A stretch of DNA of 36,912 nucleotides, taken from NCBI GenBank assembly GCA_027038275.1, contig JALVXC010000112.1:1-36912 (forward strand), written 5' to 3'. Position numbers and translations under genes: made by a program. The notes under the pieces were generated by a model. It saw only the letters and a program-made list of their open reading frames with translations. It made no database searches and was not told the DNA's origin. Source of the stretch: Campylobacteraceae bacterium. GTDB taxonomy: Bacteria; Campylobacterota; Campylobacteria; Campylobacterales; Sulfurovaceae. Of this stretch, positions 11,766 to 20,644 are shown in pieces (the first letter of the stretch is position 1; the number at the start of each line of letters is the position of its first letter).

Positions 11766-11784
11766 GAGGAGATTAACTCTCCTC
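11766..11784 (-). terminator. Second hairpin overlapping the RND stop codon
   Basis: GAGGAGA (11766-11772) pairs with TCTCCTC (11778-11784) with a five-base loop. It overlaps the last codons of the convergent RND gene and adjoins the preceding hairpin, forming a compact double stem at the operon ends. Confidence 0.4.
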
Positions 11785-13464
11785 TTTACCTTTTACTAAG
11801 GCACTTGCATTGTCCATTAAGACAGGAACAAATAGAAGTGAAACAAATACAGCAGCTACTGTACCAGAGATAAGTGCAACTCCTAGACCACCAAAGATAG
11901 GGTCACTAGCAAGTAGGGCAGAACCTAATATAATAGCAACAGCAGTCAAGAAGATAGGTGTAGCTCTAATAGCTGAAGCGTGAGCAATAGCTCTTTTTTT
12001 CTCCATTCCTTCTTCTCTAATTAGACTCATCGCAAAGTCAATAAGTAGTAGAGAGTTTCTTGAACTAATTCCCATAAGAGCAATAAACCCAATAAGTGAT
12101 GTTGCAGTAAGGAAGAAGGTATTCACTGTTACCAAGTCTGCAACCCAGTGTCCAACAATAACCCCAATAAGAGAGAGGAATGAACCACCTAAAATAATAC
12201 CACTTAGTGCAAAGCTCTTATAGTAGATAACTAGTAAGAAGAAGATAAGAACTAGTGCCGCAATAAAGGCAGCACCTAAATCTCTAAAGGTATCTAAAGT
12301 AACTTTCATCTCACCGTCCCAACGAAGTAGGAACTTCTCACCTGTCTTTTTGTCTGTTAAGATAAGGTCAAACATATAAGTTGAAATAGGAGCTGTCTCT
12401 ACCTTATACTCTTTTTCAAAATACTTCATCATCTTCTCTCTGGCATCTAATAGAGGGTAGACTTGTGAAACATTGTCAGTCTCAGCAATAACATTAATTA
12501 CACGCTCTAAATCTTTATGCATAATACCAGGGGTTGAGTCAACTTGAACAATATCTACAACCTCTGTAAGAGGAACCATCATTCCCTTTTGATTCATAAG
12601 ATTGAGTGAAGTAAGTTTTGAGCGAATTGCATCTGCACTTTTATCTTTTAGCTCTTTGGTCTCATCGCTTAATACTAAAAAGATAGGAATCTGAACAGAA
12701 CGATTAGTTGAGTTTTTAGTTGCAATTGCCATTCCCTCGAATGCAAGGTATAAAATATTATTAACCTGCTCAATTCCTAGCCCTGAACGTGCAATCTTTT
12801 CACTGTCTGGAACAAGTTTATATTTTTTGTAAATATCATCAGCCATGACATCAACATCTACCAAATCTTTTGTATCTTTTAAGATATTTGCTACCTCAAT
12901 AGATAGTTTACGTATATGTTCAAGGTTGTCTCCATGTACCTCTAGTACAATAGATGCAAGAGTAGGAGGACCTGCTGGTTGCTCTATCATTTTAATAGTT
13001 GTTCCAGGAACAACAGATTCACAGCTACCTTTTATGATAGGACGAAGACGACTAACCATAAGAAAAGATGGCTCTTCTCTCTCCTCTTTAGGAGTTAGGT
13101 TTACTGCTATCTCTGCAACATTTTCAGTACGTTTCATAGCCGAACCTTTAACCAGTCCTGCATAATCAAGAGGAATACCTTGTCCATAGAAAGTAGATAT
13201 ATTTAGAACCTCTTTCTCTTTTCGTAAAATATCAGATACACATTGGGTTACCTTTTTGGTCTGATAAATGGAACTACCTGTTGGAGTATCTACATATACA
13301 GAGTATGTATTGGCACTCTTTCCAGGAAGCATTCTTGCTAATACAGCTTTTGATGGAAACATAAGTAGAGAAGCAAAAAAAGCTACAATAGTAAGTATGA
13401 TTACCATTGCTTTTCTAAATTTAGATTGTAAAATCCAAAAGACAAAATTTTCAAGTTTTTTCAT
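11773..13464 (-). CDS. RND efflux pump, C-terminal half as a separate protein
   Basis: The 563-residue protein corresponds to the second half of an AcrB-type RND pump: one N-terminal membrane helix, a large periplasmic porter/docking region, then five helices. The helix that in AcrB carries the essential Lys shows MGISSRNSLLLIDF, with Arg469 in the lysine position and Asp476 nearby. The ATG follows directly, and in frame, the TAG of the N-terminal half. A strong ribosome site (GGGGGAGAAG) lies in front of it, so it is most likely translated as its own polypeptide and assembles with the other half. It is the last gene of the operon. Readthrough of TAG into a full-length protein of about 1,125 residues is the alternative. 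Confidence 0.9.
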   Translation of the reverse strand: MKKLENFVFWILQSKFRKAMVIILTIVAFFASLLMFPSKAVLARMLPGKSANTYSVYVDTPTGSSIYQTKKVTQCVSDILRKEKEVLNISTFYGQGIPLDYAGLVKGSAMKRTENVAEIAVNLTPKEEREEPSFLMVSRLRPIIKGSCESVVPGTTIKMIEQPAGPPTLASIVLEVHGDNLEHIRKLSIEVANILKDTKDLVDVDVMADDIYKKYKLVPDSEKIARSGLGIEQVNNILYLAFEGMAIATKNSTNRSVQIPIFLVLSDETKELKDKSADAIRSKLTSLNLMNQKGMMVPLTEVVDIVQVDSTPGIMHKDLERVINVIAETDNVSQVYPLLDAREKMMKYFEKEYKVETAPISTYMFDLILTDKKTGEKFLLRWDGEMKVTLDTFRDLGAAFIAALVLIFFLLVIYYKSFALSGIILGGSFLSLIGVIVGHWVADLVTVNTFFLTATSLIGFIALMGISSRNSLLLIDFAMSLIREEGMEKKRAIAHASAIRATPIFLTAVAIILGSALLASDPIFGGLGVALISGTVAAVFVSLLFVPVLMDNASALVKGKEES

Positions 13465-15153
13465 CTACTTCTCCCCCTTTTTATTAGATTTATTTTCATC
13501 TTCATCATCTAAACATGGTTCACAAATACCATAAGGATTGTTCTCCATATCATGATGCTCTCCAGATTTTGGTTTTTTAAGGAGTTTTAGACTTAAGTAA
13601 GGTGTAAATATATATGCTACAACTAATGAAGCAAAGAGTGCTACAGGTACATTATAAGGAATAGGTTTCATAAATGATCCCATCATTCCCCCAACAAATG
13701 CCATAGGAACCATAGTTAAAATAATTGCTAGTGTAGCAATGTTTGTAGGTGCTCCTACTTCATCAGTAGCCTCTACTAAAATCTCCCCCATCTCTCGCTT
13801 TTCAGCACCAGGGGAGTGTAGATGTCGGTGAATATTCTCAATAACAATAATAGCTGCATCGACCAAGAGACCCAATGAGAGCAAGAAAGCAAAAAGGGTA
13901 ATTCGGTTAATAGTCTGTCCAGTCATAAAGGCTATAAAGAGTGTTATTGAGAGAATAGCAGGGACTGAGAATGTAACAATAAGTGACTCTCTCCAACCTA
14001 AAGCAAATATCAACATAACAGCAATAATAAGAATAGTAATAATCAAATGGTGCATTAACTCATCAACAGCATGGTTTGCTCTTTCACCATAGTTTCTTGT
14101 CTCTACATACTCTATACCAAGTTTTTTAAACTCCTCTTTATGCTCCTCTACCATTTTCATAACATCTTGTGCAACAAAAACAGCATTTGTTCCTGCTAGT
14201 TTAGAGACAGCTAGAGTTACTTGTGGTATTGTCTTTGAGAATGGTTGAGATTTGTCATTGTTGGCTCTAAAGATTAAATCTACATCTTTAAAGTTCTGCT
14301 TGTCTATACCATCTGTCACTTTTGCAACATCTTTAAGATAGATAGGAGAATTCATATAGTTGGCAACCATAACATTTTTTATATCTTCTATACTATTAAT
14401 TGCATTAGATACCCCAAACATAATAATTCTTTTATCTTTTGTCTTTCCTTTAACTTCAGGAACATTTACAGCAAGTTGTTTTATAGACTGCATAATCTGT
14501 CCTAAAGAGAGGTGATATGCAGAGAGTTTTCCCATGTCAACTTCTACATTATACTGCTCTTTATGCTCTCCATATAGGGTAGTCTTTGCTACGTTTGGAA
14601 TCCCATTAATTTTATATCGTAAATCACGAAGTTTTTCATTAAATTGAACAAGAGAGAGTTTTGAGTCTGGTGTTTGATAAAAGGCAAAAGTAAGAATAGG
14701 AACATCAATATCTATATCAAAAGGTTTAATAAGTGGTTGCATAACCCCTTTGGGCATCTCGTCCATATTTTGCATTACTTTATCATAGAGTTTAAGGTTA
14801 GACTTCTCTCTGTCCTCTCCAATATAGTACATAACATTAACAATACCAACATTGTTTTGAGAGATACTATAGACATGCTCAACCCCTTGAACCTCTCTAA
14901 GTTTCTTCTCTAGTGGTTTAGAGATAATATTTTCTATCTCTAAAGGACTAGCTCCTGGCATAGCAACAATTACACCACCACCAGAGATAGCGATTTGAGG
15001 GTCCTCCTCTCTAGGCATAGTGGTAAGAGAAATCCACCCTAATGCTAAGATTACTATCCCTAAAATAGCAGTTAGAGGATTTCTTAAAAATCCTTGACCT
15101 AATTTACCTGCAATGTCTTTTACAACATAAGGTTCATTTCTATTTTGACCCAT
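13465..15153 (-). CDS. RND efflux pump, N-terminal half as a separate protein
   Basis: The 562-residue protein is the first half of an RND (HAE-type) proton-driven exporter. It has a first membrane helix (TAILGIVILALGWISL), the family motif MPREEDPQI, a porter domain, then helices 2-6. The proton-relay helix reads LGLLVDAAIIVIENIHRHL with a single Asp at 432 where AcrB has two. After the sixth helix comes a polar tail with C-E-P-C at 544-547 and a run of acidic residues, ending KKGEK before TAG. Usual family members are about 1,000-1,100 residues in one chain, so this is half-size. AAGGG precedes the start, 2 nt after the adaptor gene. Confidence 0.92.
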   Translation of the reverse strand: MGQNRNEPYVVKDIAGKLGQGFLRNPLTAILGIVILALGWISLTTMPREEDPQIAISGGGVIVAMPGASPLEIENIISKPLEKKLREVQGVEHVYSISQNNVGIVNVMYYIGEDREKSNLKLYDKVMQNMDEMPKGVMQPLIKPFDIDIDVPILTFAFYQTPDSKLSLVQFNEKLRDLRYKINGIPNVAKTTLYGEHKEQYNVEVDMGKLSAYHLSLGQIMQSIKQLAVNVPEVKGKTKDKRIIMFGVSNAINSIEDIKNVMVANYMNSPIYLKDVAKVTDGIDKQNFKDVDLIFRANNDKSQPFSKTIPQVTLAVSKLAGTNAVFVAQDVMKMVEEHKEEFKKLGIEYVETRNYGERANHAVDELMHHLIITILIIAVMLIFALGWRESLIVTFSVPAILSITLFIAFMTGQTINRITLFAFLLSLGLLVDAAIIVIENIHRHLHSPGAEKREMGEILVEATDEVGAPTNIATLAIILTMVPMAFVGGMMGSFMKPIPYNVPVALFASLVVAYIFTPYLSLKLLKKPKSGEHHDMENNPYGICEPCLDDEDENKSNKKGEK

Positions 15154-15155
15154 GA

Positions 15156-15953
15156 TTAGCCCTTAATATGCACTTTTGCATACATTCCTGGGTAGATAGA
15201 TTTACCCTTTTTATTAAATTTAACTTTCATCTTAAATTTGTGTGTCATAGGGTTAGAGCTAGGAATAATAGAAGAGATTGTACCTGTTGATTTAAACCCT
15301 ACAGAGGGAATTTCTATTTGAACTTTCTCTTTAGGATTGACATATTTAATATCACTCTCTGCTATCTCAACAATAATACTTAGCCTAGAGAGGTCTGTTA
15401 AGATAACCCCTGGCATTCCAGGAATTGCCATCTCTCCAACATTAAGTCTTTTAGCAATAATAACCCCATCATTAGGTGCTCTTAGCTTAAGATAGTTGTA
15501 TTGGTTCATTACCTCTTTTTTCATCGCTTTTGCTTGGGCAACTTGTTTAGATGCAATGGAAACCATGTCTCTCATATTTTTAGCATTAAGTTCAAGGTTC
15601 TCTAGCTCATATTTAGAAACCATACCTTTTTTAAAGAGTCTTTTGTAACGTCCAAGGTTTAATAGCACATTTGAGTACTGGTTTTTGTTCATCTGAAGAG
15701 CTAGTTGAGCTTGTGAGATGGCTAAGTTTACCTGCTCTCTTTTTGAGTCTATCTCTTTAGAGTCTATTTGATAGAGAAGTTGACCTTTTTTGACTATATC
15801 TCCCTCAGAGACCAACATCTTTTTTACAATACCCATATATCTACTTGTAATCATCTTTTGGTTATCTGACTGTACTGCTCCACTTAACTCAAGTTCAATA
15901 GCATTTAGTGCACTTATCGCTAGTAGTAGACCGATAGTTAATAGTTTTTTCAT
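15156..15953 (-). CDS. RND periplasmic adaptor (membrane fusion protein)
   Basis: The 265-residue protein has a signal peptide (MKKLLTIGLLLAISALNA) and the HlyD/AcrA adaptor layout. A first lipoyl half contains VSEGDIVKKGQLLYQID, a helical hairpin spans about residues 70-150, the second lipoyl half has APNDGVIIAKRLNVGE, and a beta-barrel domain follows. It is short for the family because the membrane-proximal domain is minimal. It should bridge the inner-membrane RND pump and the TolC channel. The ATG has a strong AAAGGAG and overlaps the TolC stop by 4 nt (ATGA). Confidence 0.92.
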   Translation of the reverse strand: MKKLLTIGLLLAISALNAIELELSGAVQSDNQKMITSRYMGIVKKMLVSEGDIVKKGQLLYQIDSKEIDSKREQVNLAISQAQLALQMNKNQYSNVLLNLGRYKRLFKKGMVSKYELENLELNAKNMRDMVSIASKQVAQAKAMKKEVMNQYNYLKLRAPNDGVIIAKRLNVGEMAIPGMPGVILTDLSRLSIIVEIAESDIKYVNPKEKVQIEIPSVGFKSTGTISSIIPSSNPMTHKFKMKVKFNKKGKSIYPGMYAKVHIKG

Positions 15954-17386
15954 GAATTTTCTCCTTTATTTAAAACACTTGTTAACTCAAATACTTTTGC
16001 ATTTCTGTCATTTTTGGCTGTAAGTAGCTTTAAGAGTACCTCTAGCTCTTTTGACTGTTTAATAAGTACATCTGAAATAGATGCAATACCCTCTTTATAA
16101 CGCCCCTCATAGTTCTCATAAACCTTTTCAGCAAACTGATATTGAGTCTCTAAGCTTTCAATTTCAGCATCTTTACTTTTTATATTGGTCATAAGTTTTT
16201 TGATTTGTAGAGTTATACCAGCTTTTGCTAACTCTACTTGCTCTTGAACTTGCATATTTTTAATTTTTGCTTTTTCAAGGCTATGTTTGTTGATATTTCC
16301 ATCAAATGGAGTCCACTCTAGTTGTACTCCTACAGTATAAAAATCTTTTTGAAAAAATCTATTGAACATAGAGTTGTCAGCAGAGCCATACTCTCCAAAT
16401 GCACCAATAGTTGGTAAAAACTTAGACTCCTCCACTTTAATAGCCATATCGGTAACCTTTAGACCAAGTTGAGCTTTTTGAATGTCAAGATTGTTTTGAA
16501 CAATATCATCTTGATTAAATGTTGGAATAGGTGCTAGGGTATTAATTGTCTGGATAGAATTAACAGTCTGATTTAGAAGAAAAGAGAGATATTGGTAAGC
16601 TAACTCTTTGTTGTATGTCGCTTTAGATAGCATACTTTGTGCTTCTGATTTTCGAGCTTCTACTTCAAGCTTGTCAATATCTTTAGCATAGCCCTCCTCT
16701 TTCATGCTATCAACAATCTCTTCCAATCTATCTATGTTACTTACAATACTACTCAATTTATCAATATACTGTTCAATAAGTGAAATATCGTAAAAGGTCT
16801 TTTTTGTTTGAAATATTTTTTCATTTAAGAGCTTTTCAGTATCTAGTTGACTCATATAAGTAAGAGCTTTAGTAATTTTACTGTATTGGTCTAGTTTTCC
16901 TCCAGTATAGAGAGGGACTTGATAAGTTAGCGTAGTTTGAACATGGTTTCTAGCATCTGGATAGTTTAAGTCTTTAGGTTCTATTCCTAAAATATTTCCC
17001 CCTTGCTGTGATAAACCTTGCGAGAAAGCTCCAAAGTCTCCTTGAGCCTGTTGTGCTCCTTGACCAATTGCTCCCATGAAATCAGAAAAACCAAAATCTC
17101 TAAATGATGCCTCTCTACTCTTTACCTTAAATCCAAAGACATTTCCTGCATCATTTGAACGAAGTGTTTGTAGCTTTAGATTTAATTTCCCATAGTTATA
17201 GCCTTTAGCTATCTCCTCCTCTTGCATCTTTATCTGTTCATTAAATTTTGAGATTCTCAACTCGATATTATTGTTTCTCATAATATCTAATGCTCTATCT
17301 AATGACAAATTAGTAAGCTCCTCAGCCTCTACTAATTGTGTACAGATAACTGATACAAGTAGGGTTGTAATTACTTTCGGTAACAC
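15950..17386 (-). CDS. TolC-family outer-membrane channel of the efflux operon
   Basis: The 478-residue protein has an N-terminal signal peptide ending near VEA-EEL and long amphipathic helical segments in two repeats typical of TolC-like channels, including LSLDRALDIMRNNNIELRI at the start of the mature protein and YEGRYKEGIASISDVL near the end. A Gly/Gln-rich insertion at about residues 105-130 is unusual. The start is GTG at 17384-17386, supported by GGGAG six bases upstream. It is the first gene of the operon TolC-adaptor-RND(N)-RND(C). The cargo cannot be deduced. Confidence 0.9.
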   Translation of the reverse strand: MLPKVITTLLVSVICTQLVEAEELTNLSLDRALDIMRNNNIELRISKFNEQIKMQEEEIAKGYNYGKLNLKLQTLRSNDAGNVFGFKVKSREASFRDFGFSDFMGAIGQGAQQAQGDFGAFSQGLSQQGGNILGIEPKDLNYPDARNHVQTTLTYQVPLYTGGKLDQYSKITKALTYMSQLDTEKLLNEKIFQTKKTFYDISLIEQYIDKLSSIVSNIDRLEEIVDSMKEEGYAKDIDKLEVEARKSEAQSMLSKATYNKELAYQYLSFLLNQTVNSIQTINTLAPIPTFNQDDIVQNNLDIQKAQLGLKVTDMAIKVEESKFLPTIGAFGEYGSADNSMFNRFFQKDFYTVGVQLEWTPFDGNINKHSLEKAKIKNMQVQEQVELAKAGITLQIKKLMTNIKSKDAEIESLETQYQFAEKVYENYEGRYKEGIASISDVLIKQSKELEVLLKLLTAKNDRNAKVFELTSVLNKGENS

Positions 17387-19054: not shown

Positions 19055-20644
19055 TTAGATAGTTACATGAGTAACACTAAGACAATCCTCTAATGCAGAG
19101 AGTTCATTAAGAACTTTTTTATTAACCTCTCCATCTACTTTAACAACAGCTAGAGCTTGAGAATTCTTGTCTCGTCCAAGTCTAAAGTCTGAGATATTTA
19201 AGTTATTATTAGCCAAGATAGTACCGACAGAGCCAATAACTCCTGGAACATCTGTATTTCTAAATAGAATAAGGCTTCCTTTTGGCTCTAGGTCAAGTTC
19301 ATAACCATCAATATTGATAATACGTTGAGCTTCATCACCAAATACTGTACCAGAGATAGTAAAGTTGCCATTTTCAGTTACAAGTTTAATAGTAACTTTA
19401 TTGTTAAGCCCTGTACGGTTAACATCTTTCTCTTTGAGAATTTTTATATCTCTCTCTTGTGCTACAAACTCTGCATTGACATAGTTTACTGCTGAACCTA
19501 AAGACTCAGTTAAAATTCCAACAGTTGCAAATGTAGTTAATGAGTCAATATAATCAGAGACATCACCTTGTGTTACCACTTTAATACTTTTGATATTACA
19601 TCTTGTTGCTTGAGCAGATAGATTTCCCATTTTTTGAGTTAATTCAAGATAAGGGCGTAAGAAGTCAGGAAGTTCACTCTCTTTAATTGGTAAATTCAAA
19701 GCATTTGGATAGGCAATATTTTTACCTGCTTGAATAGCATTTTCAGCAGCTTGAATAGCAATATTTCGTTGAGACTCTTTTGTATTTGCACCTAAGTGAG
19801 GAGTAACTGTAACATTGTCTAACTCAAGAAGAGGGTGTGAAGTTGCAGGTTCTTTGTTAAATACATCAATCCCTGCCATATGAATTTTACCAGAAGTCAG
19901 ACCCTCTAAGAGAGCCTCTTCATCATAGAGTCCACCTCTAGCACAGTTAATTAAGACTACACCATCTCTCATCTTAGCAATCTCATCTTTACCAATCATA
20001 CCAATAGTCTCTTCTGTTTTTGGTGTATGAATAGTAATAATATCACAAGCAAGAATATCATCAAAATTAGTAGTATAGGCAATGTCACAATCGGTAGCTT
20101 TTCTTGGGTCAATGTATGGGTCGTAAGCTATAACTTCCATCTCAAAAGCTTTAGCTCTCTTTCCTACACGAGAACCAATATTACCAAAACCGATAATTCC
20201 TAGTTTTTTATCTTTGAGCTCAGTTCCATACCAATCTTGTCTTCTCCAAACTCTATCTTGTTTTAAGTTGTTATGAGCATAAGGAAATTGACGTACACAA
20301 GAGAGCATATGAGCCATGGTAAGCTCTACAGCAGCAATGGTATTTGCAGTTGGTACATTCATAACTACAATACCTTTTTTACTACAACCATCAATGTCAA
20401 CATTGTCAACACCAACACCTGCACGAACCACAGCTTTTATCTTCTTGGCACTATCAAGGAAAGCTTGGTCAACATCGGTAGAAGAGCGAGTAATGGCTAC
20501 ATCAGCAAGGGGAATAATATCAGAGATGAGCTTATCTTTAGGCTCATCTGCTGCATTAATTAGGTTTATATCAGCATCGTTTGCAAGAATATCCAACCCT
20601 GTTTGGTGGATATGGTCACAAACTACGATAGTTATTTTAGACAT
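19055..20644 (-). CDS. serA: D-3-phosphoglycerate dehydrogenase
   Basis: The 529-residue enzyme performs the first step of serine synthesis, NAD-dependent oxidation of 3-phosphoglycerate. It has the substrate-binding domain (RSSTDVD, AGVGVDNVD), the NAD loop LGIIGFGNIGSRVG, the catalytic segments NCARGGLYDE and TPHLGANTKE with the active-site His, then the intervening domain and a C-terminal ACT domain (VPGVIGSVGTILANNNLNISD). This is the long, type 1 form. It follows rpsA by 12 nt and matches the Campylobacter order near rpsA. Feedback inhibition by serine through the ACT domain is possible but not visible. Confidence 0.96.
   Translation of the reverse strand: MSKITIVVCDHIHQTGLDILANDADINLINAADEPKDKLISDIIPLADVAITRSSTDVDQAFLDSAKKIKAVVRAGVGVDNVDIDGCSKKGIVVMNVPTANTIAAVELTMAHMLSCVRQFPYAHNNLKQDRVWRRQDWYGTELKDKKLGIIGFGNIGSRVGKRAKAFEMEVIAYDPYIDPRKATDCDIAYTTNFDDILACDIITIHTPKTEETIGMIGKDEIAKMRDGVVLINCARGGLYDEEALLEGLTSGKIHMAGIDVFNKEPATSHPLLELDNVTVTPHLGANTKESQRNIAIQAAENAIQAGKNIAYPNALNLPIKESELPDFLRPYLELTQKMGNLSAQATRCNIKSIKVVTQGDVSDYIDSLTTFATVGILTESLGSAVNYVNAEFVAQERDIKILKEKDVNRTGLNNKVTIKLVTENGNFTISGTVFGDEAQRIINIDGYELDLEPKGSLILFRNTDVPGVIGSVGTILANNNLNISDFRLGRDKNSQALAVVKVDGEVNKKVLNELSALEDCLSVTHVTI

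Follow-up and report, generated by a model that had tools for sequence, protein, structure and literature searches.

RND permeases are known from textbooks as single-chain, internally duplicated transporters, in whose known structures the linker between transmembrane helices TM6 and TM7 is cytoplasmic. In known pumps such as AcrB, the aspartate of TM4 and a basic residue of TM10 form one relay that spans both halves of the chain. Two other arrangements are familiar: SecD/SecF, an RND-superfamily protein, is found either unsplit or as two halves of six helices each, and in MdtB/MdtC and other two-permease RND pumps one operon carries two RND genes for one pump. Here we describe a locus of a Campylobacteraceae bacterium (Sulfurovaceae; GenBank assembly GCA_027038275.1, contig JALVXC010000112.1) in which an efflux permease is encoded by two half-size genes; the whole stretch of 36,912 nucleotides that was analysed is called the window. 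We hold it highly probable that the locus is a tripartite efflux operon whose permease consists of two coupled half-polypeptides that reassociate into a pump, and that this state goes back to one gene fission that has since been kept.

A tripartite efflux operon with a permease in two genes

The features of the window that bear on the pump are:

15950..17386, minus strand: TolC-family outer membrane channel, 478 aa, GTG start, first gene of the operon (Pfam OEP, 9.4e-42)
15156..15953, minus strand: periplasmic adaptor (membrane fusion protein), 265 aa (Pfam HlyD_D23, 4.2e-26; TIGR01730 RND_mfp above cut-off)
13465..15153, minus strand: RND-N, N-terminal permease half, 562 aa, TAG stop at 13467-13465 (ACR_tran profile 8-499; TM4 Asp kept; dN/dS 0.04-0.11)
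11773..13464, minus strand: RND-C, C-terminal permease half, 563 aa, ATG start at 13464-13462 (ACR_tran profile 519-1016; TM10 Arg invariant; dN/dS 0.06-0.12)
13471..13477, minus strand: Shine-Dalgarno site GGGGGAG of RND-C, within the 3' end of RND-N (from the sequence; SD core in 130/138 relatives)
13462..13467, minus strand: junction, the RND-N TAG abutting the RND-C ATG (from the sequence)
19055..20644, minus strand: serA (phosphoglycerate dehydrogenase), upstream of the operon and outside the pump, a neighbour kept in several families (77% identity to Sulfurovum mangrovi serA; synteny)

The TolC gene overlaps the start of the adaptor gene by 4 nt, only 2 nt separate the adaptor from RND-N, and the two permease halves abut, so that TolC, adaptor, RND-N and RND-C are closely packed into a single operon. 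As in tripartite RND efflux operons, the adaptor and the TolC-family channel are encoded beside the permease, and the arrangement is conserved. Both permease ORFs match the ACR_tran profile (PF00873, 1021 positions) far above cut-off, RND-N over positions 8-499 and RND-C over 519-1016, which places the break in the linker between the halves and bears out an earlier note on this DNA that had put it between the two RND pseudo-repeats. Six helices are predicted in each half, and each has a periplasmic part of its own. The usual, although not strictly defining, RND length of about 1000-1100 aa in a single chain is not found here, the permease being made of 562 + 563 aa in two ORFs, and the best scores of the halves against the curated NCBIfam permease model NF033617 (223 and 115 bits) stay below its cut-off of 1250 because full-length thresholds are out of reach for a lone half. 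Three further RND permeases of the same genome are single chains of 1039-1066 aa, indicating that the split is peculiar to the subfamily described here. The statement of the earlier note that most RND pumps are single chains accordingly holds in general, these three included, but not within this Campylobacterota subfamily, where the split is the rule.

Additionally, the same genome carries what looks like a real RND remnant (G000, contig C21, about 14964-16318; L005 1233-2676), with C-terminal parts only, in two frames and with no N half, adjoining an ORF of the PD-(D/E)XK transposase family.

Selection, proton-relay residues and proposed assembly of the halves

Nei-Gojobori dN/dS values against five relatives were 0.04-0.11 for RND-N and 0.06-0.12 for RND-C, so both halves are under purifying selection. 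In addition, all of 130 split and 13 single-chain rows have an invariant Asp at the position of AcrB Asp407, a Glu shortly beyond it and, for Lys940, an Arg; the AcrB numbers rest on motifs rather than on structural superposition. The first TM4 Asp and the basic TM10 residue (Arg) of the relay are therefore always present, while the second TM4 Asp and the TM11 Arg are usually replaced: among the 130 split pumps, 118 have Ala in place of Asp408 and 114 have Lys in place of Arg971, for which the window has Thr. With these replacements (Asp408 to Ala, Arg971 to Lys or Thr), the proton relay of most split pumps departs from the textbook one. The pump nevertheless looks like a functional one whose relay is modified.

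By homology, the halves most likely insert as six-helix units, which would come together in the membrane as a normal RND protomer, three N+C pairs then giving the pump, (N+C)3. AlphaFold2, run on the read-through protomer with 20 sequences, gave a model of low confidence (mean pLDDT 55.5, pTM 0.42) that shows no predicted structure around the junction. A more ambitious proposal, that the split is functional and not merely tolerated, permitting regulated or exchangeable assembly (for example by mixing with halves of paralogous split pumps) together with a clade-specific modified relay, seems to us unlikely. It is very unlikely that the two proteins are independent half-transporters, each homo-oligomeric, instead of parts of one pump; six predicted helices and a periplasmic part per half would suit such a role, but the halves are always adjacent and coupled, accompanied by one adaptor and one channel, and the TM4 Asp lies in RND-N and the TM10 basic residue in RND-C, which in known pumps make one cross-half relay.

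The junction in the window and in relatives

The ORF coordinates agree exactly with the earlier description of halves of 562 and 563 aa in one continuous frame, joined as TAG-ATG at 13467-13462 of the minus strand. The GGGGGAG that was noted ahead of the second ATG is also there, as AAAGGGGGAGAAGTAGATG, the motif ending 6 nt from the ATG. At 138 distinct junctions, the spacing counted from the last base of the first stop codon to the second start codon was -14 (2 junctions), -11 (3), -4 (30), -1 (53), 0 (30), +2 (3), +3 (3), +8 (1), +9 (10), +12 (1), +13 (1) or +20 (1), and each possible frame as well as each of the three stop codons was represented. An SD core was found 5-16 nt ahead of the second start in 130/138 relatives, compared with 5, 1 and 4 of 138 in control windows of equal size lying 30, 60 and 90 nt farther upstream. 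The RND-N tail is variable in length, and TM6 immediately ahead of it is well conserved.

Since the junctions fall in all three frames, amber read-through cannot be the general mechanism; the in-frame TAG-ATG of the window is one geometry of many, and read-through is neither required nor generally possible. A narrower version, in which programmed amber read-through or re-coding yields a full-length fused permease, mainly or additionally, in the window's genus, could draw on the in-frame TAG or TAA that directly precedes the ATG in about 30 of the 138 junctions, mostly from that genus. It is nevertheless highly improbable, because most relatives have out-of-frame overlaps of -1 or -4, where fusion of the chains is impossible, because the strong SD of the second ORF is conserved, and because TAG-ATG and TAATG junctions are both present within this one genus. 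Translation of the halves as two coupled polypeptides is instead most likely, backed by the junction statistics: RND-C would start at the abutting ATG, either by the ribosome that has just finished RND-N at the TAG or by a new one recruited via GGGGGAG, and the halves, we propose, would in this way be produced together and in similar amounts.

Conservation of the split among Campylobacterota

In the genus, 33 of 34 genomes have a close relative of the pair, either as two distinct ORFs or with a stop where the halves meet, and in the family homologous split pairs were present in 163 of 175 genomes. In a class-wide sample of 397 genomes, the C half was matched in 163 genomes (42 of 68 genera), and nearly all these matches were half-size open frames of about 550-680 aa, a half-size RND-C occurring in about 155 of the 397 genomes (about 40 genera). 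Named relatives are Sulfurovum, Nitratifractor and other Campylobacterota, mostly as metagenome assemblies; in RefSeq, Sulfurovum mangrovi (NZ_CP087125.1) and Sulfuricurvum kujiense DSM 16994 (NC_014754.1) are each recorded with a pair of distinct genes named 'efflux RND transporter permease subunit'. The few single-chain exceptions in the phylum were the matching genomes of family f4, one genome of f13 (G375), which has a split pump as well, and one of f10 (G526).

The earlier note had suggested searching homologous operons for the same split and ribosome site, and both were found across relatives. It had also reasoned that single-chain pumps in all close relatives would speak against an adapted split; the opposite was seen, the closest relatives (82-97% identity, independent assemblies) having the stop at the same place and more distant ones having two genes in other frames. 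Kept as it is across most Campylobacterota families, the stop between the halves is no defect. A recent nonsense mutation or a sequencing error in a single-chain pump, which would make the gene a decaying one or the TAG unreal and which the note had left standing as a caveat, would account for the one continuous frame of both ORFs, as after a point mutation, but its probability is close to nil given the same stop in those independent assemblies, the frames of other relatives that no point mutation explains, the purifying selection on the halves, the two-gene state in finished isolate records and the quite different look of the real RND remnant of the same genome. The conserved split, the conserved SD and the purifying selection support instead the view, already put forward in that note, of an adapted split whose second half is probably translated independently.

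A second paralogue, also split and about 54-60% identical, was observed in several genomes of the window's family and of f7 (loci L243, L245, L247, L249 and L199), and no TolC gene was matched beside it in these loci. Adaptor-RND-N fusions had been suspected in a small number of genomes, from open frames of about 810-830 aa; this was rejected, the adaptor and RND-N being separate adjacent ORFs there.

Origin of the two-gene permease

Three trees were built, the last one leaving out outgroup row L258 (a wrong-frame ORF) with unchanged outcome. All split pumps formed one clade in the three trees (SH-aLRT 99-100), with single-chain Campylobacterota pumps as its sister (SH-aLRT 91-99) and single-chain pumps of other phyla as the outgroup. 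Furthermore, the nearest relatives from outside the phylum in a plasmid collection are single genes of about 1060-1120 aa. A topology constrained to group the earliest-branching split pumps with the single-chain ones was rejected (p-AU 5.6e-11), which argues against re-fusion. The simplest reading, well supported by these trees, is thus one old fission of a single-chain ancestor within Campylobacterota; the break would have been placed in the cytoplasmic TM6-TM7 linker and then retained. Because the split clade sits on a long branch (about 1.1-1.3), long-branch effects may bear on the single origin. The single-chain pump of f4 (L073 1435-4953, minus strand) begins with about 70 additional residues, which are rich in Lys and Glu and coiled-coil-like, ahead of its RND part.

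The gene order serA - TolC - adaptor - RND-N - RND-C - efp is common to many families; in the window, serA lies upstream with a radical-SAM gene in between, and efp is not beside the operon. The single-chain, sister-clade pump of G526 (L242) adjoins efp, as does the split pump of G363 (L226) from the same genus. Different pump types next to efp in one genus suggest that one pump has replaced the other at this site.

Meaning and comparison with known systems

As its parts are known and both genes are already in RefSeq, this is not a new system. The two-gene form of the permease is itself undescribed in the literature searched: no description of a conserved two-gene, half-size RND efflux permease was found in open-access sources (most subscription journals lying outside that scope), and the Arcobacter and Nitratiruptor literature that we checked makes no mention of a split permease. 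A natural two-gene version with such wide conservation would mean that the repeats can do without a covalent link, and its native half-proteins offer material to study the role of each half. The locus also provides a polarised case of a large membrane protein whose gene was split long ago and which can be set against single-chain sisters from its own phylum, and a warning for annotation, since such genes should not be labelled broken.

Among described systems, the AcrB/MexB/MdtBC-type HAE permeases (ACR_tran) are alike in that each half fits the matching half of the family, the operon holds an adaptor and a TolC gene and the first TM4 Asp is kept; the solved structures nearest by sequence are also single-chain HAE pumps. 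They differ in being single chains of about 1000-1070 aa, whereas two subunits are found here, and in the AcrB-type relay, compared with which the split pumps have mostly Ala for the second TM4 Asp, Arg at the Lys940 position and mostly Lys at the Arg971 position. Closer still are the single-chain sister pumps (f4, G375, G526), of the same subfamily, 41-46% identical within the phylum and with an adjacent adaptor gene, and the plasmid pumps of Polaromonas, Flammeovirga, Pseudanabaena and Sphingopyxis, also of this subfamily and next to an adaptor gene, with 29-36% identity in the C half. Unlike the split clade, all these pumps are one gene, and their cytoplasmic linker runs on uninterrupted at the place of the stop and start of the split clade. 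SecD/SecF differs in function, being an accessory of protein export without an adaptor/TolC operon and not a tripartite efflux system. Lastly, the subunits of MdtB/MdtC are full-length RND proteins, whereas here each subunit is half of one.
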